Positions 1,842-57,718 of a stretch of DNA of 64,000 bases are shown here, one piece after another. Origin of the DNA: Limihaloglobus sulfuriphilus (GTDB lineage: Bacteria > Planctomycetota > Phycisphaerae > Sedimentisphaerales > Sedimentisphaeraceae); the NCBI RefSeq assembly GCF_001999965.1, contig NZ_CP019646.1, forward strand, positions 3,224,001 to 3,288,000, in the 5' to 3' direction. The notes under the pieces were generated by a model. It was not told where the DNA came from. It made no database searches and saw nothing but the letters and a program-made list of their open reading frames with translations. A program made the position numbers and the translations under genes. Every line of letters starts with the position of its first letter. Within the stretch, counting starts at the first letter, position 1.

Positions 1842-3686
1842 TTATTCTATCGGGCGGACGGGTCTTTTGTTTACAGTATCGTCAAGCCACTGGCCAAAGA
1901 CCGTCTGAAAAGTTGTTTCGTCTGTCTTTAATGGTTCGCCGTCAATCTCCGAAGGCATGTTTTTACTGCCGTCTTTGAAACTGATCCCGTCAAAATATGC
2001 CCCGCTGCCCAGCTCAACATCCTTGACGCTCCAAGTGCCGCACGAGAGTACAAAACGGTTTACGCCGAGTTTGGCGTATGCGCCTGGTTTTCCGATTGCA
2101 TCATCATATAGTTCAGCCACGTTGGCGGTTATCTGGTGCCATGTTTTGGCTTGCCGGGGCAGGTTGAAATACAATCCCTGTTTTTTTCTGCCCAATTGCT
2201 GAAGATGCAGCCAGCTGCTGACACTGCCGGTTGTGTGGTACCCCACGGCTCTTGGGTAGTAATCACTATAGTATTTGGCAATTTCCCTGCCCCAATCAAA
2301 CTGCATGAAGAACTTCAGCTCGCCATCGTCTTCGGGGCCGCCGATCGCCATCAGGCTGTAATAGCCGCCGCCCAGCTCGGGCTCTTCTTCTATACGGTAG
2401 CTGCCTTTAAGTATCGGGTTATCGCCGGGAGACTCTATTATCTGGTAAAATTCGTTATACTCGTCCTGCAGCCAGTTTTTACCCATCGGAATTGTATAGA
2501 CATAACCTGAGTAAAGCCCGTCGGTTTTCCATTTCATCCGCCATTCATTATGGTAGCCGGTTTCCTCGTCGCAGTTGTAGCGGTAGGGCGTGTACCAACT
2601 CTTAAGGCAATCTTCAAAACTGCCGTTTTCAAGCTGCGGTTTTGCCGGCAGATTTACTATCGGCGAAAAGAGACGCGGCTCAATGTCATGCGTAAACTCC
2701 TGGAAGGTATCTGGGTAGACAAATTCTTTGTCAACATCCACAAGTCTGGCTTTTAGTGTTATATCCTCGCCGTCCACCTCTACTATAGAGTAGTAACCCC
2801 CTGCGTTGAGCCCTTTTTCGTATTCAGGGTATTCCTCGCCGAAGGGTCTGGGTGAAGTGCCGCTGGGGATAGTAACAAAGTTTATGCCTTTATATCTCCA
2901 GGCGGTTTTCTCGGAAACTTTTATGCCGTTATGGACGTGGCCGTTAAAAAACCACTTGACATTTCCATGTTCGCTCATTGCCTCAAGCAGGTCGTGCTTG
3001 AGCTCTGCCGAATGTGTGTACCACTCAAGCTGGCTCAACCCCATCGGCATGAAATGGATGTGTACCAGAACGATTGTCGGTTTGTCCTTGTTCGCTGCCA
3101 GGTCCTTGCGGAACCATTCCATCATCGGCTTAACCACCTCAAGACGGTCATAGTTGCCGAATTCAATATTTGCAGGCAGCGAGACGAAGTGCCATTTGCC
3201 CACATCAAACGAATAATACACACTGCGGATGCCGTTAACCTGTTCCTGGTAATCGCGGAATAGAGTGTATGGAGGGGAAGTGTCGTGGTTGCCGTGGTTT
3301 ATGATGTGGCGGCCCTTGGTGTACGGGCTGATCCTCTCTTCCCAGTTGTCCAGGCTTTTATTGTCGGGCACGTTTACAATATCACCGAGATGAATTATGA
3401 ACTTTATATCCCGGGGGTCTTTGTTAATCTCTTCTATAGTAGTCGAGAGAGCGTAGTTTGCGTTCAGGGCCAGATCTGAATTGCCCGGGTCGGCATGGCT
3501 CACCTGCGAATCAGCAATAATTGCAAAAGTGAACTTCTCCGGTATTTCTTTGAGCTCCGGCCAGGGGTTTGTTATTCCGTCCCATTCCGGATCAATGCCG
3601 AGGGGCCTCTGCTCCTGTGCCGAGATGTTTGCAGAAAAGGTGATCAGTACAACAGTCAACAGCAAAAAAATATTAGATATTTTCAT
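1842..3686 (-). CDS. Secreted calcineurin-like metallophosphoesterase
   Basis: A 614-residue exported protein. Residues 1-23 form a signal peptide (MKIS, hydrophobic core, ending ISAQ). The metallophosphatase motifs follow in order: D59 in AIIADSQ, GD at 101-102 in HLGDIVN, GNHD at 132-135, H209 and H211 in VHIHFMP, and GHVH at 249-252, so the dimetal site looks complete. After about residue 340 comes a second module of roughly 270 residues rich in Trp and Tyr, which looks like a carbohydrate-binding or jelly-roll-type domain. Natural substrates could be phosphodiesters, phosphomonoesters or phosphorylated polysaccharide. No operon partner is visible: the next genes are an unrelated split-barrel protein and a divergent sigma factor. 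The enzyme class is well supported, the substrate is not. Confidence 0.85.
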   Translation of the reverse strand: MKISNIFLLLTVVLITFSANISAQEQRPLGIDPEWDGITNPWPELKEIPEKFTFAIIADSQVSHADPGNSDLALNANYALSTTIEEINKDPRDIKFIIHLGDIVNVPDNKSLDNWEERISPYTKGRHIINHGNHDTSPPYTLFRDYQEQVNGIRSVYYSFDVGKWHFVSLPANIEFGNYDRLEVVKPMMEWFRKDLAANKDKPTIVLVHIHFMPMGLSQLEWYTHSAELKHDLLEAMSEHGNVKWFFNGHVHNGIKVSEKTAWRYKGINFVTIPSGTSPRPFGEEYPEYEKGLNAGGYYSIVEVDGEDITLKARLVDVDKEFVYPDTFQEFTHDIEPRLFSPIVNLPAKPQLENGSFEDCLKSWYTPYRYNCDEETGYHNEWRMKWKTDGLYSGYVYTIPMGKNWLQDEYNEFYQIIESPGDNPILKGSYRIEEEPELGGGYYSLMAIGGPEDDGELKFFMQFDWGREIAKYYSDYYPRAVGYHTTGSVSSWLHLQQLGRKKQGLYFNLPRQAKTWHQITANVAELYDDAIGKPGAYAKLGVNRFVLSCGTWSVKDVELGSGAYFDGISFKDGSKNMPSEIDGEPLKTDETTFQTVFGQWLDDTVNKRPVRPIE

Positions 3687-7193: not shown

Positions 7194-7534
7194 GTAGAGC
7201 AAATTCACGAATTTGCTCAGTTTAAAAAGTTAATAGCTAAAAGTAATCAAATAGACATGATTAACAAGATTTGGATTTACCATGAAGAGCATGAAGGACA
7301 TGAAGAAAGGATATAATACAAACTTCAATTTCTTCAATAACTTCATGGTTAATAAAAAATTAATAGTTATGTAGGGCAAGCGTCCCCGCTTGCCGTTTCA
7401 ATGTCAACCGAGGACGGTTGAGCTACTTAGTAAGAGTACACGCTTTAACGTGCAAAACACCCCGTCTTTCGGGCACCCCTCTGTGAGAGGGTAATTTGAT
7501 TTGTGTCGGGCTGGAAGCCCGACCTACGATGAGT
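7194..7534 (+). repeat. Composite palindrome block, copy 1 (tgt-yajC gap)
   Basis: In order on the plus strand: a GTAG-headed palindrome with arms GAGCAAATTC/GAATTTGCTC; an AT-rich segment with three ATGAAG-type units; a GTAG-headed palindrome GGCAAGCG/CGCTTGCC; palindrome TCAACCG/CGGTTGA (GTAG on its minus-strand side); hairpin CACGC/GCGTG; hairpin CCCG-TCTTT-CGGG; a CCTCT-type hairpin; and palindrome GTCGGGCT/AGCCCGAC (GTAG on the minus strand). The same order recurs elsewhere in the window. No coding potential. Confidence 0.9.
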
Positions 7535-7891
7535 TAAAAAGTTAATAGCTAAAAGTAATCAGATAGACATGATTTACAGGATTTGAATTTACCATGAAGA
7601 GCATGAAGGACATGAAGAAAAGATATAATACAAACTTCAATTTCTTCAATAACTTTATGGTAAAAAAAAATTAATCTTGTCTATCTTGTAAATCCTGTCT
7701 AATAATTTTAAAAGTTACGATTTATGTAGGGCAAGCGTCCCCGCTTGCCGTTTTAATGTCAACCGAGGACGGTTGACCTACTTAGTAAGAGTACACGCTT
7801 TAGCGTGCAAAAACCCCGTCTTTCGGGCACCTCTCTAAAGAGGGGAATTTAATTTGTGTCGGGCTGGAAGCCCGACCTACGATGAGTTTAA
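7535..7891 (+). repeat. Composite palindrome block, copy 2 (tandem with copy 1)
   Basis: A near-identical second copy directly following the first, starting again at AAAAAGTTAATAGCTAAAAG about 310 bases downstream. It lacks the first GAGCAAATTC palindrome but contains a more complete AT-rich inverted repeat (7564-7701) and then the same series of hairpins up to AGCCCGACCTAC. The remaining 7892-8011 is AT-rich and presumably holds the yajC promoter; no clear promoter was found there. Confidence 0.88.
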
Positions 7892-25466: not shown

Positions 25467-26246
25467 ATGTTTATCCTGGCAAATACAAATCCGCTCGAAG
25501 AGCTGACAAGTAAGCCGCTTTTCGAGATATTTGGAATAACCTTTACAAACCACATGTTTGTGGTTGCCCTTGCCGCGGCACTGCTGGGCATAGCGATACC
25601 GCTTAGTATGCGTTCGAGTTTGCTGGTGCGGTCGGGCCCGGGCAACATGATAGAGGCTATCTGCGTGTTCCTGCGCGATGATGTGGTAAAACCGTTCCTT
25701 GGAAAGCATACCGACCGATATATCCCCGTGCTCTGGACGCTGTTCTTCTTTATACTGACGCTGAACCTGCTTGGTATGGTGCCGCTGGATAAATTTTTCA
25801 CTCTGGCAAGCGGTCATACAAGCCATTGGGGCGGCTCGCCGACGGCGAATATATGGGTAACCGGTTCGCTGGCGTTTTTCTCTTTTGTGCTGTTCCACGC
25901 CGCGGGAATGTATGAAAACGGGCCGTGGAACTACATAAAAAACTTCACGCCCAAGGTGCCGATGCCGCTGATGCCGTTTATATTTTTTATAGAGCTTATC
26001 AGCTCATTTGTCAGGATGTTCTCCTTGTCGATTCGTCTTTTCGCCAATATAATGGCAGGGCATATAATGCTCGGGACGATAATGGGGTTTATATTCCTGT
26101 TCCAGAACATGGCGGCGGCGACCGCGTCGATCGCCTTTGTAGTGGCGCTGAGTATGCTTGAGCTCTTTGTTGCCTTTGTGCAGTCGTATATATTTGTGTT
26201 CCTGACGACAATATTTATCAGTTTCGCAGTACATCAGGAGCATTGA
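25467..26246 (+). CDS. atpB: F-type ATP synthase subunit a
   Basis: A 259-residue stator membrane subunit forming the proton half-channels against the c-ring. The essential Arg is R190 in FVRMFSLSIRLFANIMAGH. The preceding helix carries PFIFFIELISS, and the C-terminal helix holds LFVAFVQSYIFVFLTTIF with the conserved Gln. Five to six membrane segments are visible. The frame starts at ATG 25467. The stop TGA at 26244-26246 is followed at once by an array of GAATTAA heptamers and then by a foreign-looking gene, so the operon is interrupted right here before atpE. Confidence 0.95.
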   Translation: MFILANTNPLEELTSKPLFEIFGITFTNHMFVVALAAALLGIAIPLSMRSSLLVRSGPGNMIEAICVFLRDDVVKPFLGKHTDRYIPVLWTLFFFILTLNLLGMVPLDKFFTLASGHTSHWGGSPTANIWVTGSLAFFSFVLFHAAGMYENGPWNYIKNFTPKVPMPLMPFIFFIELISSFVRMFSLSIRLFANIMAGHIMLGTIMGFIFLFQNMAAATASIAFVVALSMLELFVAFVQSYIFVFLTTIFISFAVHQEH

Positions 26247-26540
26247 GAATTAAGAATTAAGAATTAAGAATTAGGAATTAAGAATGAAGAATTGAATGGA
26301 CATAATTTACAAGATTGACAAGAAGGTAAAAATTCAATGGAATCTGTCCACTTGAATTTAAAAGTTAAGATTTAAGTAGGGCAAGCGTCCCCGCTTGCCG
26401 TTTTAATGTCAACCGAGGACGGTTGACCTGCTTTGTGTCGGGCTGGAAGCCCAACCTGTGAAAATAATCAGCGAGAATCTGCGTAATCAGCGGATTTTCT
26501 GATTCCTGATTATTTAAAAGATAACTGTGGGGGATAAATC
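26247..26540. repeat. Repeat-filled gap after atpB
   Basis: Five GAATTAA/GAATTAG heptamers start immediately after the atpB stop (26247-26281). Then comes GAATTGAATGGACAT and a TTTACAAGATTGACAAGAAG stretch that recurs after the pilin-like gene. At about 26376-26456 follow GTAG-GGCAAGCG/CGCTTGCC, TCAACCG/CGGTTGA and GTCGGGCT/AGCCCAAC palindromes, and then an AATCTGCGTAATCAGCGGAT module. No coding region. Confidence 0.88.
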
Positions 26541-27953
26541 ATGAACAATGGACCAAAACAATTTAATAAAAAACGGCTAAAAGGTATAATAATGCCCTTT
26601 GTGGTGCTCGTTATGGGAGTGATGCTGGTGCTTGGCATGGGTATGCTCCGTTCAGCGTTGAGCGCCCGTATCATAGCCAATATCTACACATCTCGTGCTA
26701 TGGCGACGATGGCGGCGGATTCTGCGCTGGACCTGGCGATGTCGATGTCGTACCATATCAGAGATACAAGGGATACGGACCTGCTCGAGGATGACGATGG
26801 CACGACCGCCGGTCTCTTTGATAACTACCGGCCGGGCTGGGGAGAGCCGTCTGTTGCAGCCGCGGGCATAACCGGTTTCTTGCAAATTTCGAACGCGGCA
26901 TGGCTGGGAATCGGCGTGCCAGAGCCATTTCCGATGCTCGAAGGTGTACAGGGCTGGACTTACAGCTCCGATACATTCACGCTGAGAAACAGCAGTAAAC
27001 CCGCCTCGTACAGTTTCCAGATCAAAACAGATAAGAATTTCACACAGTTTGAGCTGGCGGCCTCGGGCAGGTGCGCCAATGAGACAAAAGACATCCATGC
27101 TCTGCTGGTGCCTCGCGGGCCGTGGTTTGGTATCGGCACAAAAAATGGGTTTATACTCCACGTTCATACGAGCCTGGGAACAGTGCCGTCCAATGCGAAG
27201 ATGGTTATGGCTACAAATTCAATCGTTAAAAATAGTGTGGAATTGAAAAACGGCGTGGTTGTACCCGGCGATATCGTGGTCGGGCCGGGCGCAAACCCCG
27301 ATGAGGTTGTGTCTTTAAAGCATGGTGCGGGCGTAACGGGCACAATCAGCACCAACTATGAGAAGATAGAGTTTCCCGATGTAGTTGCTCCGGTTCTGCC
27401 AAACAGGTCATGGCCTAAAACAAAAGGAAACAGTAACGAAATCGTTATTGATTCCAGTGGTGCTTATCCTGGTATCAAGACCAAAAACAGTGACGTTATA
27501 CGCATAGAGGGTGATGTTGAAATGGTCATTGACGGCGATTTCAGCCTCGGCAACGGCTCAGAAGTAAGAATATCAAACGGTTCCTCGCTTCGATTGTATT
27601 GCACGTCCAAATTTGAGGCGAAAAATGGTTCCGGAATAATAAATGAAAATTATTCTTCCGGCGGTTCAGATGAGTCGATTGTAAACGCGGCCAAAAGTTT
27701 TAAACTTTTCGGTACTCCATCCTGCAGCATCGTCAATCTCAAAAACAGCAGCGAGCTTGTAGGTTCGGTTTATGCCCCTGATGCCCTGCTTTTGCTGCAT
27801 AATAGTGCTGATTTTTACGGCGCTTTGCTTGGCGGGCTTATGGTAGATATCAGAAACTCCGGCACGTTCTATTATGTTGACGGACTGTATGAGCCCGACG
27901 ATGAATCGGTCGCGAGCTTGAAGCTCAAACCCGGAACGTGGTGGGAACGGTGA
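26541..27953 (+). CDS. Pilin-like exported protein of PilX/DUF7305 type, inserted in the atp operon
   Basis: A 470-residue protein. A short cytoplasmic tail is followed by one membrane helix at about 17-39 (IIMPFVVLVMGVMLVLGMGMLRSA), and the rest is extracytoplasmic. The helix and the following ALSARIIANIYTSRAMATMAADSALDLA resemble PilX-type pilus accessory proteins. The C-terminal two thirds is rich in Gly, Asn and Ser with repeating strands (KNGVVVPGDIVVGPGA, DGDFSLGNGSEVRISNGSSL, LKNSSELVGSVYAPDALLLL), as in DUF7305 or polymer-forming beta-helix domains. It has no known link to ATP synthesis. The gene separates atpB from atpE and is bordered on both sides by the same heptamer array and AT-rich repeat, which suggests insertion. 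Family call is moderate. Confidence 0.68.
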   Translation: MNNGPKQFNKKRLKGIIMPFVVLVMGVMLVLGMGMLRSALSARIIANIYTSRAMATMAADSALDLAMSMSYHIRDTRDTDLLEDDDGTTAGLFDNYRPGWGEPSVAAAGITGFLQISNAAWLGIGVPEPFPMLEGVQGWTYSSDTFTLRNSSKPASYSFQIKTDKNFTQFELAASGRCANETKDIHALLVPRGPWFGIGTKNGFILHVHTSLGTVPSNAKMVMATNSIVKNSVELKNGVVVPGDIVVGPGANPDEVVSLKHGAGVTGTISTNYEKIEFPDVVAPVLPNRSWPKTKGNSNEIVIDSSGAYPGIKTKNSDVIRIEGDVEMVIDGDFSLGNGSEVRISNGSSLRLYCTSKFEAKNGSGIINENYSSGGSDESIVNAAKSFKLFGTPSCSIVNLKNSSELVGSVYAPDALLLLHNSADFYGALLGGLMVDIRNSGTFYYVDGLYEPDDESVASLKLKPGTWWER

Positions 27954-28030
27954 GAATTAGGAATTAGGAATTAGGAATTAGGAATTAGGAATTAGGAATT
28001 AGGAATTAGGAATTAGGAATTAGGAATTAG
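27954..28030 (+). repeat. Eleven perfect tandem copies of GAATTAG
   Basis: The heptamer GAATTAG repeats exactly eleven times, beginning directly after the TGA stop of the pilin-like gene, and is followed by one GAATTAA variant. In the plus frame it would be read through all three phases, so it has no coding role. Confidence 0.95.
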
Positions 28031-28200
28031 GAATTAAGAATTGAATGGACATGATTTACAAGATTGACAAGAAGTTTAAAAATTCAATGCGATCCTGTAA
28101 ATCTTGTAAATCGTGTCTAATATAGTTTAATAGTTATGAGCGAAGCGAATTCCACAATTCCTAATTCCTAATTCTTCATTCTTCATTCTTCATTAAAAAA
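28031..28200. repeat. AT-rich inverted-repeat module before atpE
   Basis: GAATTGAATGGACATGATTT and the following TACAAGATTGACAAGAAG match the module after atpB. The segment GACATGATTTACAAGATT near 28047 pairs imperfectly with AATCTTGTAAATCGTGTC about 50 bases on. Near 28158-28195 an inverted version of the heptamer array appears (AATTCCTAATTCCTAATTC, then TTCATTCTTCATT). Confidence 0.85.
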
Positions 28201-33711: not shown

Positions 33712-34312
33712 CTTATTTAAGTGAAAAGCGAAAAGTGAAAAGTGAAAAATAGCGGAGTTCGCCCTCCGAGGCGGATTTTCAACTTCTCTCACAGATTTAA
33801 AAAAGAATATAAAGCCATGTAGAGCAAATTCACGAATTTGCTCAGTTTAAAAAGTTAAGAGATAAAAGTAATCAAATAGACATGATTAACATGATTAACA
33901 AGATTTGAATTTACCATGAAGAGCATGAAGGACATGAAGAAAAGATATAATAAAAACTTCAATTTCTTCAATAACTTCATGGTTAATAAAAAATTAATCT
34001 TATCTATCTTGTTAATCCTGTCAAATAATTAAAAAGTTAAGATTTACGTAGGGCAAGCGTCCCCGTTTGCCATTTAAATGTCAACCGAGGACGGTTGAGC
34101 TACTTCGTAAGAGTGCACGCTTCAGCGTGCAAAACATCCCGTCTTTCGGGCACCCCTCTAAAGAAGGGGGATTTAATATGTGTCGGGCTGTAAGCCCGAC
34201 CTACGAAGAATAATCAGCGAAAATCTGCGTAATCTGCGGATTTTCTTATTTTAAAATTAAATACACAAGATTAAAATCCTGTTAATCCTGTAATCCTGTC
34301 AAAATAAATAAA
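33712..34312. repeat. Composite palindrome block between atpD and atpC
   Basis: After a short GTGAAAAGCGAAAAGTGAAA stretch, the block runs from 33819 (GTAG plus GAGCAAATTC palindrome) to 34204 (AGCCCGACCTAC). It keeps the same module order as the tgt-yajC copies: AT-rich inverted repeat, GGCAAGCG, TCAACCG, CACGC, CCCG-TCTTT-CGGG, CCTCT and GTCGGGCT hairpins. An AATCTGCGTAATCTGCGGAT module follows at about 34213-34247. No coding region or promoter was recognised. Confidence 0.9.
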
Positions 34313-42747: not shown

Positions 42748-43203
42748 TTTTTTAATTATCAGACAGGATTAACAAGATTAACAGGATTTTGTTTAGTTAT
42801 TTTTAATCTTGTGTATTTAATTTTAAAATAAGAAAATCCGCAGATTACGCAGATTTTCGCTGATTATTTTCGTAGGTCGGGCTTCCAGCCCGACACATAT
42901 TAAATTCCCCCTTCTTTAGAGGGTTGCCCGAAAGACGGGGTGTTTTGCACGCTAAAGCGTGTACTCTTACTAAGTAGCTCAACCGCCCTCGGTTGACATC
43001 GAAACGGCAAGCGGGGACGCTTGCCCTACTTAGCTTCTAATTATTGGACAGGATTACAAGATAGACAAGATTGATTTTTTATTATATCTTTCTTCATGTC
43101 CTTCATGCTCTTCATGGTAAATGCAAATCTTGTTAATCATGTCTATTTGATTACTTTTAGCTCTTAACTTTTTAAATTGAGCAAATTCGTGAATTTGCTC
43201 TAC
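42748..43203 (-). repeat. Composite palindrome block, inverted orientation, copy 1 in the bat locus
   Basis: On the plus strand the modules occur in reverse order: AAATCCGCAGATTACGCAG module, GTAG-GTCGGGCT/AGCCCGAC (from 42872), CTTTAGAGG, CCCGAAAGACGGG, CACGCTAAAGCGTG, GTAG-CTCAACCG/CGGTTGA, CGGCAAGCG/CGCTTGCCCTAC, the AT-rich module, and GAGCAAATTC/GAATTTGCTCTAC (end 43203). Relative to the flanking minus-strand genes the order is the same as in the tgt and atp copies. Confidence 0.9.
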
Positions 43204-43239
43204 GCCGCGGCATTTGTCTAACCTGACCGCTCCATATTT

Positions 43240-43282
43240 CTTCACTTGTTTATCAATATTATCAGAATGTGAACAAGTGAAG
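43240..43282. repeat. Isolated 11-base inverted repeat between two composite blocks
   Basis: CTTCACTTGTT (43240-43250) and AACAAGTGAAG (43272-43282) pair perfectly over a 21-base AT-rich loop. No T-run follows on either side. It lies in the only part of 42748-43778 that is not covered by the repeat blocks, followed by ATTGCGTCATGCGATATTG, which itself recurs at 43717 and 57313. Confidence 0.7.
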
Positions 43283-43338
43283 AACGGCTCTGATTGCGTC
43301 ATGCGATATTGACTGAATCTTAACTTTTTAAACTCATC

Positions 43339-43716
43339 GTAGGTCGGGCTTCCAGCCCGACACATATTAAATTCCCCCTTCTTTAGAGGGGTGCCAGAAA
43401 GACGGGGTGTTTTGCACGCTAAAGCGTTTACTCTTACTAAGTAGCTCAACCGTCCTCGGTTGACATAGAAATGGCAAGCGGGGACGCTTGCCCTACATAA
43501 ATCTCAACTTTTTAATTATTGGACAAGATTAACAAGATAGACAAGATTGATTTTTTATTAACCATGAAGTTATTGAAGAAATTGAAGTTTTTATTATATC
43601 TTTTCTTCATGTCCTTCATGCTCTTCATGGTAAATTCAAATCATGTTAATCATGTCTATTTGATTACTTTTAGCTCTTAACTTTTTAAACTGAGCAAATT
43701 CGTGAATTTGCTCTAC
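43339..43716 (-). repeat. Composite palindrome block, inverted orientation, copy 2 in the bat locus
   Basis: A second reversed copy from GTAG-GTCGGGCT (43339) to GAATTTGCTCTAC (43716). It includes the full AT-rich inverted repeat, with CTTCATGTCCTTCATGCTC and TTCATGGTAAATTCAAATC. The remaining bases to 43778 hold the ATTGCGTCATGCGATATTG repeat and an AATTCGTAATTCGTAATTC run. Confidence 0.9.
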
Positions 43717-44774: not shown

Positions 44775-44788
44775 CAGGGCAATCGCAT

Positions 44789-45940
44789 CTAAAGTCCTTT
44801 ATTTTGTTGTGTCAGCACGCGATATAGGTATTGCTCGTTCCAGCCGCAGCACAGCCTTCTGGTCTTTATGCCGACCTTGTGCTTGGTTTGCTGTTTTAGC
44901 AGATTCAGTGCTATTCGTGAGAGCCTTGCAAAATTTTCTGCTCCATAACCTTTTCTTATTCTCCTTTCATCGTCGGCAAAGCTGATATCTAAACACCAGT
45001 GCAAGGAGTTCTCTACCCCCCAGTGGCCCCTGATATATTTGAGTAAATTTGGCGGATTTTTGCAAGTCAGGCTTGATATGTAATACCGTTTCTCTACGCT
45101 TGTTTCATCTCCTATGCTCCTCTTTGCCTCCACACATATCAGGCTCTTGAGCCCGACCCAGTTCTTCTTTTCAGAGTTAAGGAATCCTACATTTGAAACA
45201 GCCCGCAATGTGCGTTCTTCAACCCTGCCGTGGCCTCCATCAGTTTCACTTGCAACAGTATATTGAATATTATAGACATTATCGTCTATACATTCATCAA
45301 AAAGGGTAACTGCATTTTTATGCAGGCCGGTCTGATTTGCCTTTAGCTGCAAGATATAGTCCCCATCATTTTCAATTACAGCATTAGCAATTTCCTTTTG
45401 GCAGCCCATAGCATCAGTTGTTACAACTGCACCATCTAAATCAATTAACTCCAAGAGCTTAGGTATAGCCGTTATCTCATTGCTCTTGGTTTCTGTTGCA
45501 ATCTGCCCAATGACCATTTTGTTGGTGTCGCACCAGGCATTTACCATGTGAACAGCCGCTTTTTCAGATGCATAATCAACGCTTCTACGCATAGTCTTGC
45601 CGTCAATGGCTATGAGCCTGCCTTCACTCTTTTGGGCTAAGGCATTGACCCATTCGAGGAAGCATTGTTCAAATGAGTCGGGTTTGAGAGAAGAAAATAC
45701 TCGTCCAAATGTGTCGTGAGAAGGAATGCCATTAGGCAAAGAAAGAAAACTTTTAAACCACTCTTCTTTGCACTGAGCGAACTCTTCAACCTGTGTCCAT
45801 CCATCAGCGCCACAAATTATTGCACAAATTGCAATGGATAAAATATCGCTAAGCTCATGCTTGCGAGTACGCTCGACTCTGGGGTCTTCAATTGTCGAAA
45901 AATAGTCCATTAATCTGCGTTGGTTTTGTTCTTTTTTCAT
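44789..45940 (-). CDS. ISAs1-family transposase
   Basis: A 383-residue protein. The N-terminal associated domain reads RLMDYFSTIEDPRVERTRKHELSDILSIAICAIICGADGW, followed by GIPSHDTFGRVFSSL. The catalytic core is LIAIDGKTMRRS, VVTTDAMGCQKEIA and, toward the C-terminus, RGHWGVENSLHWCLDISFADDERRIRKG, matching the DDE set of the family. GAGGAAAATT precedes the ATG. The reading frame is complete. Confidence 0.96.
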   Translation of the reverse strand: MKKEQNQRRLMDYFSTIEDPRVERTRKHELSDILSIAICAIICGADGWTQVEEFAQCKEEWFKSFLSLPNGIPSHDTFGRVFSSLKPDSFEQCFLEWVNALAQKSEGRLIAIDGKTMRRSVDYASEKAAVHMVNAWCDTNKMVIGQIATETKSNEITAIPKLLELIDLDGAVVTTDAMGCQKEIANAVIENDGDYILQLKANQTGLHKNAVTLFDECIDDNVYNIQYTVASETDGGHGRVEERTLRAVSNVGFLNSEKKNWVGLKSLICVEAKRSIGDETSVEKRYYISSLTCKNPPNLLKYIRGHWGVENSLHWCLDISFADDERRIRKGYGAENFARLSRIALNLLKQQTKHKVGIKTRRLCCGWNEQYLYRVLTQQNKGL

Positions 45941-45994
45941 AATTTTCCTCGTTTTAACGTTGCAAAGATATAGAATACTATATATTATACTATA

Positions 45995-46282
45995 ATGAAA
46001 AAGACAAAAAAAGCTATAAAATTATTAGAAAAAATCGCAAAAATAGAGCGAATGGAACGAGGGAAAATATGTCAGATGAAAAACCGGCAGCATTTCAACC
46101 ACCAAACGTGGAAAAATGGAGCCAATGTTGTGCGATATGTCCCAAAGGATGAGCTTGAAGCACTGCAGGCTGACATAGATAGTTACAACCAATTCATGGA
46201 CTTAGTGCAACAATATGCTGACGAAATCATACGGATAACACGCCTTGAAAGAAAAAAACTAACCGAAAAGCCTAAAAAATGA
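45995..46282 (+). CDS. DUF6788-like passenger protein inside the ISAs1 element
   Basis: A 95-residue basic protein encoded divergently from the transposase and wholly inside the terminal repeats. Its pattern is LLEKIAKIERMERGKICQM, then HQTWKNGANVVRYVPKDELEAL, then YNQFMDLVQQYADEIIRITRLERKK. This resembles DUF6788-type proteins, which often travel with transposons and plasmids; the usual Gly-Cys-His-type middle is weakly conserved. The ATG lies within a very AT-rich stretch (TATATTATACTATAATG) with no ribosome site, so the message may be leaderless. Function unknown; a regulator of transposition is possible. Confidence 0.65.
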   Translation: MKKTKKAIKLLEKIAKIERMERGKICQMKNRQHFNHQTWKNGANVVRYVPKDELEALQADIDSYNQFMDLVQQYADEIIRITRLERKKLTEKPKK

Positions 46283-46304
46283 TATTTTAGATGCGATTGC
46301 CCTG

Positions 46305-55472: not shown

Positions 55473-55531
55473 GCAGCGGCGTTTATTCAGGTTTTTAGCG
55501 TTTCACAGCGTATTTGCGTAACCGCTCCACG

Positions 55532-55635
55532 TAGGTCGGGCTTCCAGCCCGACACAAATCAAATTACCCTCTCGTAGAGGGGCACCCGAAAGACGGGGTG
55601 TTTTGCACGCTAAAGCGGGTACTCTCACAAAGTAG
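55532..55635 (-). repeat. Left part of a composite block cut by the IS110-family element
   Basis: GTAG-GTCGGGCT/AGCCCGAC, CCCTCTCGTAGAGGGG, CCCGAAAGACGGG and CACGCTAAAGCG end in ACTCTCACAAAGTAG. In the intact copy at 57450-57490 the same text continues straight into GTCAACCGTCCCCGGTTGAC, which here is found only beyond the insertion, at 57249. Confidence 0.92.
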
Positions 55636-55787
55636 AAAATATGGAACGACCGGCCCCAACGGTTGCAAATCTCGTCATAAGCCGGATAATTACGGTTTAT
55701 GCGATAAGGTGTACGTAGCACCTGCCAATCGCGGGTTATTACACTGTGGCAACAGAGCCGCATACAATACGAAAGGTACCGGTCGTT

Positions 55788-56915
55788 ATGAACAATATTA
55801 TAACATATGTAGGAATGGATACACACAAAAAACAACATAAAGCTGCCATAAAATACCCTGATCGGGATAATGTTGTTGAATTTACAATCAAAAATACGCC
55901 CTCTGATATTAAACGGGCAGTAAAAAAGATAGCCCGTCAGGCACCTGGGCCGGTTGAATTCTGCTATGAAGCCGGCGTTTGCGGCTTTTCTCTCAAGCGC
56001 AGGATTGAGGCTCTGGGCTTTAAATGTGCGGTAATCGCCCCATCTCTGGTACCGGTAAAACCCGGAGTTCGTATAAAAACAGACCGCAGGGACGCAAAGA
56101 AGCTTCAGGAGTACTACAGTGCGGGCCTGTTGACCGAGGTTCACGCTCCCAATGAGAAACAGGAGGCAGATAGAGAGCTGGTGCGTCTTCGTGAGACAGC
56201 CCGAAAGGATGTCCAGAGAGCACAACATCACATACTCAAGTTTCTCAATCGTCATAGCTATATTTACCATCAGGGCAATCACTGGACAGATAAGCATATA
56301 ACCTGGCTGCGTGGTATAAACTTCGAAGAGCCCGCCCTGAATGAAGTCTTTGAGGCATATTTCGCCCAGTACATAAACTGTTGTGAAAGGCTCGACAGGT
56401 GTGATCGGCGTGTTGAGGCGCTGGCAGAAACGGATGACTACCGCGAAATGGTAGGTATTTTGAGTTGTTTTCACGGCATCAAGACCATCACGGCAATATC
56501 CATTCTGGTGGAAATTTTTGATTTTGCCCGTTTTGAATCAGCCCCGGCTTTTATGTCATACCTCGGTTTAACCCCTAAAGAGGACTCCAGTGGAGAATCA
56601 GAAAAAAAAGGCCCGATAACCAAGGCCGGCAATAAGCGGGTAAGGCGGCTGCTCAATGAAACTGCCCACCACTACCGGCATCGATATGTTCCATCTAAGG
56701 CCCTTAAAAAACGTAGAGAGAGCCGGCCGCAATGGGGAATAGAAATAGCTGACAGGGCCGGGCAGCGTTTGAGTTACCGGCACAGGTACCTTCGGGCCAG
56801 GGGCAAGATTCTGGTAAAGGCCAACATCGCAGTTGCCAGAGAGCTGGCCGGGTTCATATGGTTCACAGCAACCCAGTATTACGCAAGAAAACAGGCTCAG
56901 CCGCAGAAAGTTTAG
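55788..56915 (+). CDS. IS110-family transposase (DEDD type)
   Basis: The start is set at ATG 55788 (MNNIITYVGMDTHKKQHKAAI), giving 375 residues; the upstream in-frame ATG at 55746 lies in the non-coding end. The N-terminal RuvC-like DEDD domain includes VGMDTHKKQH, EFCYEAGVCGFSL and KTDRRDAKKLQEYY. The C-terminal transposase_20 domain holds GIKTITAISILVEIFDFARFES, YLGLTPKEDSSGESEKKGPITKAGNKRVRRLL. The frame is intact. Such enzymes use a bridge RNA from a non-coding end to choose donor and target. Confidence 0.96.
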   Translation: MNNIITYVGMDTHKKQHKAAIKYPDRDNVVEFTIKNTPSDIKRAVKKIARQAPGPVEFCYEAGVCGFSLKRRIEALGFKCAVIAPSLVPVKPGVRIKTDRRDAKKLQEYYSAGLLTEVHAPNEKQEADRELVRLRETARKDVQRAQHHILKFLNRHSYIYHQGNHWTDKHITWLRGINFEEPALNEVFEAYFAQYINCCERLDRCDRRVEALAETDDYREMVGILSCFHGIKTITAISILVEIFDFARFESAPAFMSYLGLTPKEDSSGESEKKGPITKAGNKRVRRLLNETAHHYRHRYVPSKALKKRRESRPQWGIEIADRAGQRLSYRHRYLRARGKILVKANIAVARELAGFIWFTATQYYARKQAQPQKV

Positions 56916-57248
56916 TTCATATACTTTTTATCACCCTGGGAAAAAAACATTTAAAATTTAATACAGAAAAACATGACAAATGGTGGCGTGGGTACGAAAA
57001 AACCACTTGCGATTGTCCTATATGACAGATATGCCTTATCGGTAAGTCTGACTCATGCCCGTAGAAAGCAAGGTTTGCGACGGAGTATTTCAATGTCGGC
57101 TCTGGCCAAAAGCTAATCCACGTATATCAGACTGAATCAACGTCGAAGAATCCCACGCTATCATGCGTCATTAAAATAAGATATGTAAAATTTAAAAAAA
57201 AGTAAATATAATCTCATTAAAACTATTGACAAAGGTCGTTCCATATCA
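56916..57248 (+). other. Non-coding 3' end of the IS110-family element, possible bridge-RNA region
   Basis: The 333 bases after the transposase stop have no coding frame. They contain short complementary stretches suited to hairpins around GGCGTGGGTACG and TTTGCGACGGAG. IS110 relatives carry a bridge RNA in their long non-coding end, and in the IS1111 subgroup this often lies downstream of the gene. Guide loops were not identified by eye. Confidence 0.45.
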
Positions 57249-57305
57249 GGTCAACCGTCCCCGGTTGACATTAAAACGCCAAGCGGGGACGCTTGCCCTA
57301 CGCCG
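57249..57305 (-). repeat. Right part of the interrupted composite block
   Basis: GGTCAACCGTCCCCGGTTGA and GCCAAGCGGGGACGCTTGCC followed by CTAC complete the block interrupted by the insertion element. A GCTCTGATTGCGTCATGCGA unit follows at 57306-57350. Confidence 0.9.
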
Positions 57306-57358
57306 CGGCTCTGATTGCGTCATGCGATATTGCCTGAATCTTAACTTTTAAACTCATC

Positions 57359-57718
57359 GTAGGTCGGGCTTCCAGCCCGACACAAAGTCCAATTCCGCCT
57401 TCTTTAGAGGGCACCCGAAAGACGGGGTGTTTTGCACGCTAAAGCATGTACTCTCACAAAGTAGGTCAACCGTCCCCGGTTGACATTGAAACGGCAAGCG
57501 GTGACGCTTGCTCTGCTTAGCTTCTAATTATTGGACAGGATTACAAGATAGACAAGATTAATTTTTTATTACCATGAAGTTATTGAAGAAATTGAAGTTT
57601 TCATTATATCTTTTCTTCATGTCCTTCATGCTCTTCATGGTAAATTCAAATCCTGTTTATCATGTCTATTTTATTTATCTCAAATCTCAAATTGAGCAAA
57701 TTCGTGAATTTGCTCTAC
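57359..57718 (-). repeat. Composite palindrome block, inverted orientation, after the IS110-family element
   Basis: A complete reversed copy from GTAG-GTCGGGCT to GAATTTGCTCTAC, including the AT-rich inverted repeat (57530-57670). It provides the uninterrupted reference, CACAAAGTAGGTCAACCG, for the insertion site next to it. Its orientation is opposite to the flanking plus-strand genes. Confidence 0.9.

Follow-up and report, generated by a model that had tools for sequence, protein, structure and literature searches.

A composite mosaic repeat of GTAG-tagged and other hairpins in intergenic regions of Limihaloglobus sulfuriphilus

Results

Composite blocks in the window

The window, a stretch of 64,000 nucleotides from the complete 3.87-Mb chromosome of Limihaloglobus sulfuriphilus (NZ_CP019646.1, positions 3,224,001 to 3,288,000), contains six blocks of a non-coding composite repeat of 330–390 bp, two of them in the gap between tgt and yajC and one between the genes for the beta and epsilon subunits of ATP synthase. 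The blocks combine short hairpins with AT-rich pieces, always in one order, and the following module names were used: A, the GTAG-tagged GAGCAAATTC hairpin; T, TTTAAAAAGTTAAGA; B-b and C, nested AT-rich palindromes; D, GTAG-GGCAAGCG; E, TCAACCG...CTAC; F, CACGC; G, CCCG-TCTTT-CGGG; H, CCCCTCT; and I, GTCGGGCT...CTAC. Of the GTAG-tagged modules, A and D read as GTAG hairpins, whereas E and I read as CTAC hairpins; other motifs accompany them, and the AT-rich part is made of two imperfect palindromes, one nested in the other. Homology often continues leftward into X-Y (CAATATCGCATGACGCAATCAGAGCCG plus a ACAAGTGAAGAA hairpin) and rightward into Z (AATCAGCGAAAATCTGCGTAATCTGCGGATT); F, G, H, and Y are hairpins without GTAG. 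The copies and their flanking pieces are listed below in window positions.

7194..7528, +, block 1: A, T, B-b, D, E, F, G, H, I, without C; tgt-yajC gap
7534..7882, +, block 2: T, B-b, C, T, D, E, F, G, H, I, without A; in tandem to block 1
26376..26462, +, partial copy: D, E, I, then a Z-like repeat; degenerate
33819..34204, +, block 3: complete, A to I; atpD-atpC (ATP synthase beta-epsilon) gap
34212..34244, +, Z repeat, to the right of block 3
42870..43203, -, block 4: A, T, B, C, D, E, F, G, H, I, between AATAAAAA repeats the b half is lost; Z comes next, at 42835
43204..43336, -, X-Y spacer (CAATATCGCATGACGCAATCAGAGCCG plus ACAAGTGAAGAA hairpin) linking block 5 to block 4
43337..43716, -, block 5: complete, A to I
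55531..55631, -, F, G, H, I of the copy that an IS110-family element splits
57250..57301, -, D, E of the IS110-split copy
57357..57718, -, block 6: A to I with a mutated D hairpin; X comes next, at 57306; antisense to the flanking genes

A first-pass annotation of this DNA had described eight modules in one order in six blocks, and we recovered all six, at 7194, 7534, and 33819 on the forward strand and at 42870, 43337, and 57357 on the reverse strand. The order was kept in each of them, but the full module set was not: the 7534 copy lacks the first hairpin (GAGCAAATTC), the preceding copy being joined to it via a TTTAAAAAGTTAA repeat, half of the AT-rich inverted repeat is missing from the 42870 copy, and in the 57357 copy the GGCAAGCG hairpin is mutated to GCAGAGCAAGCGTCACC. 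The partial copy at 26376 follows the same order (GGCAAGCG, TCAACCG, GTCGGGCT). A random arrangement of the modules would agree across the six blocks with a probability of about 1e-31, a value that, for homologous copies, shows common descent only. A search of the window against Rfam 15 returned no structured-RNA match at or above the gathering score, and a literature search with the AT-rich sequence gave no paper.

Genome-wide distribution

In the genome-wide survey, the sequence regions around matches were examined, and approximately 20 large copies were found at 16 intergenic loci. Outside the window, composites were located at 3.042, 3.0435, 3.0547, 3.0568, 3.0603–3.0615, 3.165, 3.220, 3.438, 3.643–3.646, and 2.163 Mb. 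The same cyclic module order was observed at the 16 loci, with one partial exception, a rearranged copy at 3.2178 Mb, so that the non-random order noticed in the window holds across the chromosome. Blocks can be chained as I-T-X-Y-A, and a chain can start at A or at D. Fifteen of the 16 loci lie within 3.04–3.66 Mb, which corresponds to 16% of the chromosome, and an exhaustive search for D hairpins placed 22 of 25 copies in the same sector. A hairpins, unlike the sector-confined composites, are spread genome-wide. The whole block was not found in the 40 relatives searched or in 297 further members of the class, for which only two candidates per genome were scored.

Several other repeats were observed in the same chromosome. 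At 3560–3576 kb, roughly twelve PEP-CTERM-type genes, each about 1 kb long, lie in tandem, and after every gene comes a related mosaic that keeps the cyclic order but has changed hairpin stems (D' GGACAGGCATCCCTGCCTGTC and I' GTCGGCCAGGGATGGCCGAC). Three DUF7305 paralogues (3053122, 3055283, and 3250541, the last at window 26541–27953) are 55–74% identical to one another, and at least two of them carry a D-E hairpin pair upstream, which indicates joint duplication of gene and repeat. As a carrier of blocks, gene duplication was considered and set aside, being seen only at the DUF7305 genes 3055283 and 3250541. The 7-base tandem repeats GAATTAG/GAATTAC and the 9-base periodic repeats GATTAACAT, CATGAAGGA, and GCAGATTAC, all present at window 26242–28130, recur in many gaps, and related 9-base motifs also occur in other families of the order.

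REP hairpins among the modules

Modules A, D, E, and I have the form of REP hairpins, i.e., palindromes of 20–40 bp with GTAG unpaired at one of their ends; in A, the final G of this tag can pair. Two of these families are extragenic, multicopy, and compensated in their stems, namely A (67 exact-pattern copies genome-wide, most of them outside blocks) and D (25 copies). The A stems GAGCAAATTC, GAGAAAATTC, and GAGAGAATTC each have matching partners, and 65 of the 67 copies are fully paired, two positions having been left free in the search. A-family hairpins also form inverted pairs of about 130–150 bp with GTAG outermost (3028218, 395024, 449156, 3833841, and 3525631), which are probable miniature elements in their own right.

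Some modules also occur alone in other lineages. The D-E dimer is found by itself in Brocadiaceae, where stems covary from GGC/GCC to GAC/GTC and one genome holds 45 D-like hairpins, while the B-b palindrome stands alone in a genome (G009) of another family of the order. These occurrences indicate that the modules are older than the composite.

Homology between copies, recombination, and module loss

Aligned copies mostly diverged by 3–7%, in hairpins and spacers alike, indicating that stretches were copied rather than single hairpins; the proposal that the modules travel together thus gained support from the shared spacers. Descent of all blocks from one local duplication could be ruled out, because tandem neighbours are mostly not nearest relatives: the copy at 3231194 (window 7194) is 92–93% identical to those at 3043743, 3054660, and 3060315 and 83% identical to its tandem neighbour at 3231534. 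A true tandem duplication was detected only at 3060315–3061480.

Variants in the left and right halves of the copies were uncorrelated (Mantel r about 0; the alignment misplaces a few ends), and all four gametes were present in 21–34% of informative site pairs. These patterns point to recombination among copies, with repeated mutation as an alternative.

In several pairs of copies with unlike flanks, homology begins within a few bases of the GTAG of A and ends at the CTAC of I. The block does not form a closed unit of eight parts: X, Y, and Z are often shared, the order is cyclic, A lies mostly outside blocks, and shorter frames, most of them running from GTAG to CTAC, exist alone. The latter include D-E-I at 3042000, 3043526, and window 26376 (degenerate), D'-I' at 3563–3571 kb, and D-E in Candidatus Brocadia; conversely, Y-A-B-b-C pieces terminate without CTAC. 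The D-I and A-C pieces that stand apart at 2.162 and 3.643 Mb were rejected as independent units, as they are copies split by IS110-family insertion.

Module loss was observed at short direct repeats. The b half is absent from the copies at 3266870 (window 42870) and 2164523, between two AATAAAAA repeats, and the 7534 copy looks like the product of T-by-T recombination that removed X-Y-A. F-G-H is missing with three different junctions, the commonest of which, CTACT|GTGTCGG, is found at 3042216, 3043526, 3060800, and 3061175; this common form may be either the ancestral state or a deletion.

Gain at sites that are short in relatives

The tgt–yajC gap, which holds two blocks, measures 826 nt here and 25 nt in the family relative G003, where secDF follows. 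The corresponding values for atpD–atpC (ATP synthase beta/epsilon), with one block, are 601 nt here and a 1-nt overlap in the family relatives G002 and G004. A look for empty sites in related genomes, as the first-pass annotation had suggested, thus indicates that the blocks were gained here, inside two conserved operons, after the split from these relatives. The extra DNA exceeds the blocks and includes heptamer repeats, Z, and C-like pieces, so that these sites accumulate repeats in layers.

Operon setting and orientation

The genes flanking the composites are co-directional at all 16 loci (background 74%, P=0.009), and the blocks lie in the sense orientation at 14 of them (p=0.004), in agreement with the earlier remark that in most blocks the module order follows the transcription of the flanking genes. 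By comparison, single A hairpins were divided 10:10 between sense and antisense (Fisher 0.03 against the composites), and 20 of 34 were in co-directional gaps (Fisher 0.002). For these statistics, genes were open reading frames, Pfam-checked at some loci, and the p-values serve as guides, the copies being related. Replication strand was discarded as the cause of orientation: sense copies are found on both strands within 13 kb (3042216, +; 3054660, -), and transcription consequently predicts orientation better. The sense bias is best explained by selection.

Both strands of the block fold strongly and equally well, and no dinucleotide shuffle was as stable (z -7.9). Of the terminator-like hairpins counted over related copies, 14 were in sense and 2 on the opposite strand, and their tails were weak. 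Promoter-like sequences in the block showed no excess over shuffles.

Y1 transposases and insertion elements

The mobility of GTAG-form REPs has been ascribed to RAYT or IS200-type Y1 transposases (PMC3733652, PMC2817692). The genome has five Y1 transposase genes. An A-family inverted pair adjoins the IS200-type gene at 3028660, on one side only, and the other four have no A, D, or I hairpin within about 1.5 kb. Given 67 A hairpins, the chance of an A pair near any of the five genes is a few per cent, so this vicinity only suggests a link. The ends of the composite, A and I, are unlike beyond GTAG/CTAC, and no flanking target duplication was seen; in these respects the block differs from a MITE.

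Two insertion sequences were also present. An IS110-family (RNA-guided) element of 1618 bp occurs in five copies that are 99–100% identical (window 55632–57249; 2162909, 3444817, 3644083, and 3788427). In all five, the sequence on the left terminates in CT and that on the right opens with CTAC; three insertions lie exactly in the GTAG tail of a block D or E hairpin and one in a D-E array, resembling IS621 and other REP-targeting IS110 elements (PMC1525189, PMC11208160). Three ISAs1-family elements of 1.53 kb (3029087, 3065062, and 3268775, the last at window 44775–46304) are 99.9–100% identical, and one of them lies directly upstream of the IS200-type Y1 gene.

Discussion

Origin and spread of the composite

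We rank first, at about even credence, the reading that all blocks derive from a single non-coding mosaic repeat of composite make-up, which spread by movement of GTAG...CTAC frames and was later recombined. Stretches would have spread mainly as such frames (A to I, D to I), perhaps moved by an IS200-like Y1 transposase of the REP-linked kind; homologous recombination among copies would then have shuffled variants, and blocks would have eroded at short direct repeats. Sense copies might be tolerated as transcribed, folded spacers or act as weak attenuators or stabilisers of polycistronic mRNA, and antisense copies may have been removed by selection. This reading is supported by the shared order with about 3–7% divergence in hairpins and spacers, the sharp homology ends at GTAG and CTAC, the lone GTAG-CTAC sub-frames, the dispersed and covarying A family, the Y1 genes, the empty sites, the sense bias, and the co-directional setting. 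It is weakened by the lack of a target duplication and of any excised or newly inserted copy, by two unlike end hairpins that one Y1 enzyme might not both recognise, by the frequent copying of X-Y and Z and the Y-A-B-b-C pieces that end without CTAC, by the few-per-cent chance of the A pair beside the Y1 gene, and by the confinement to one sector, which is unexpected for a free transposon. Ranked second, and somewhat less probable, is spread without a transposase, in which homologous recombination, gene conversion, and template switching at short repeats (T, B, and hairpins) copied an ancestral tandem array with a period of about 530 bp into repeat-bearing gaps of the same sector. The cyclic order and I-T-X-Y-A chains, the clustering of 15 of 16 loci, the uncorrelated halves and four-gamete pairs, the X-Y and Z flanks carried along, the tandem duplication at 3060315–3061480, and the losses at short direct repeats all favour it. 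However, the entered gaps are nearly absent in relatives (25 nt or an overlap) and would offer no homology unless smaller repeats came first, and the sharp ends at GTAG and CTAC in several pairs also speak against it.

That the block is a functional operon RNA (an attenuator, processing, or stability element) in which selection keeps block and module order is unlikely: the sense bias, co-directional setting, strong folding, and 14:2 excess of terminator-like hairpins are in its favour, but modules are often missing, the host genes are unrelated, orthologous sites in relatives carry no copies, both strands fold equally, the tails are weak, and the 14:2 count comes from related copies. Somewhat less likely still is a transcription-linked repeat that enters or survives only between co-transcribed genes, in sense, either because its copying involves RNA or is coupled to transcription (a single reverse transcriptase gene is present in the genome) or because it serves operons as a modular spacer RNA. 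Independent accretion, with modules inserted singly at each site and the order set by a target preference of repeat for repeat, could draw on the lone modules (A genome-wide, D-E in Brocadiaceae, B-b in G009) and on the IS110-family element, which does target a GTAG tail. It is nevertheless highly improbable, as the non-hairpin spacers common to sites at high identity refute it for the present copies; it may apply to the origin of the first block.

Comparison with known systems

The first-pass annotation had known of no described element with this mixture of hairpins, which was too strong a statement, since GTAG-tagged REP hairpins combined with other palindromes belong to the general kind represented by BIME, NIME, and BOX. 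The composite is BIME/BOX-like, with GTAG-tagged REPs as core modules, and is uncommonly elaborate among such repeats. The block has REPs in alternate orientation with other short motifs, as in BIMEs (PMC3733652, PMC2817692), with which it shares GTAG hairpins with inverted partners, extragenic, dispersed positions, clustering with short motifs, and targeting by IS110-family elements. BIMEs alternate one or few REP types, whereas the block brings no fewer than four different GTAG hairpins, together with hairpins lacking GTAG and a long AT-rich palindrome, into one ordered stretch of 330–560 bp. The BOX element of Streptococcus pneumoniae (boxA-boxB-boxC; PMC3049150), compared by layout only, likewise has fixed-order modules of variable presence and is transcribed and strongly folded; its terminal inverted repeats are linked to an IS (PMC3049150), while the block has more modules, GTAG ends, and no repeated middle module. 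Neisserial intergenic mosaic elements and mosaic regions with CGTC REPs (PMC3733652, PMC3049150) also bring several repeat families into one intergenic region, but the block differs in its fixed order and in stretches copied whole. REPIN/RAYT systems and IS200-derived miniature elements share the layout GTAG hairpin...hairpin CTAC, which the A-family inverted pairs of about 145 bp have, whereas the composite frame has unlike end hairpins and no cognate transposase was identified for the block.

The novelty lies in how the repeat is composed, in its operon setting, and in its sense bias, rather than in the general mechanism. Single REP hairpins, some of them common to distant planctomycete classes, can fuse into a large ordered composite, which, spreading as one piece, lengthens core-operon gaps by 600–800 nt. 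The sense bias of the composites, with none in single hairpins of the family, provides a testable handle on possible effects of such repeats on polycistronic mRNAs.
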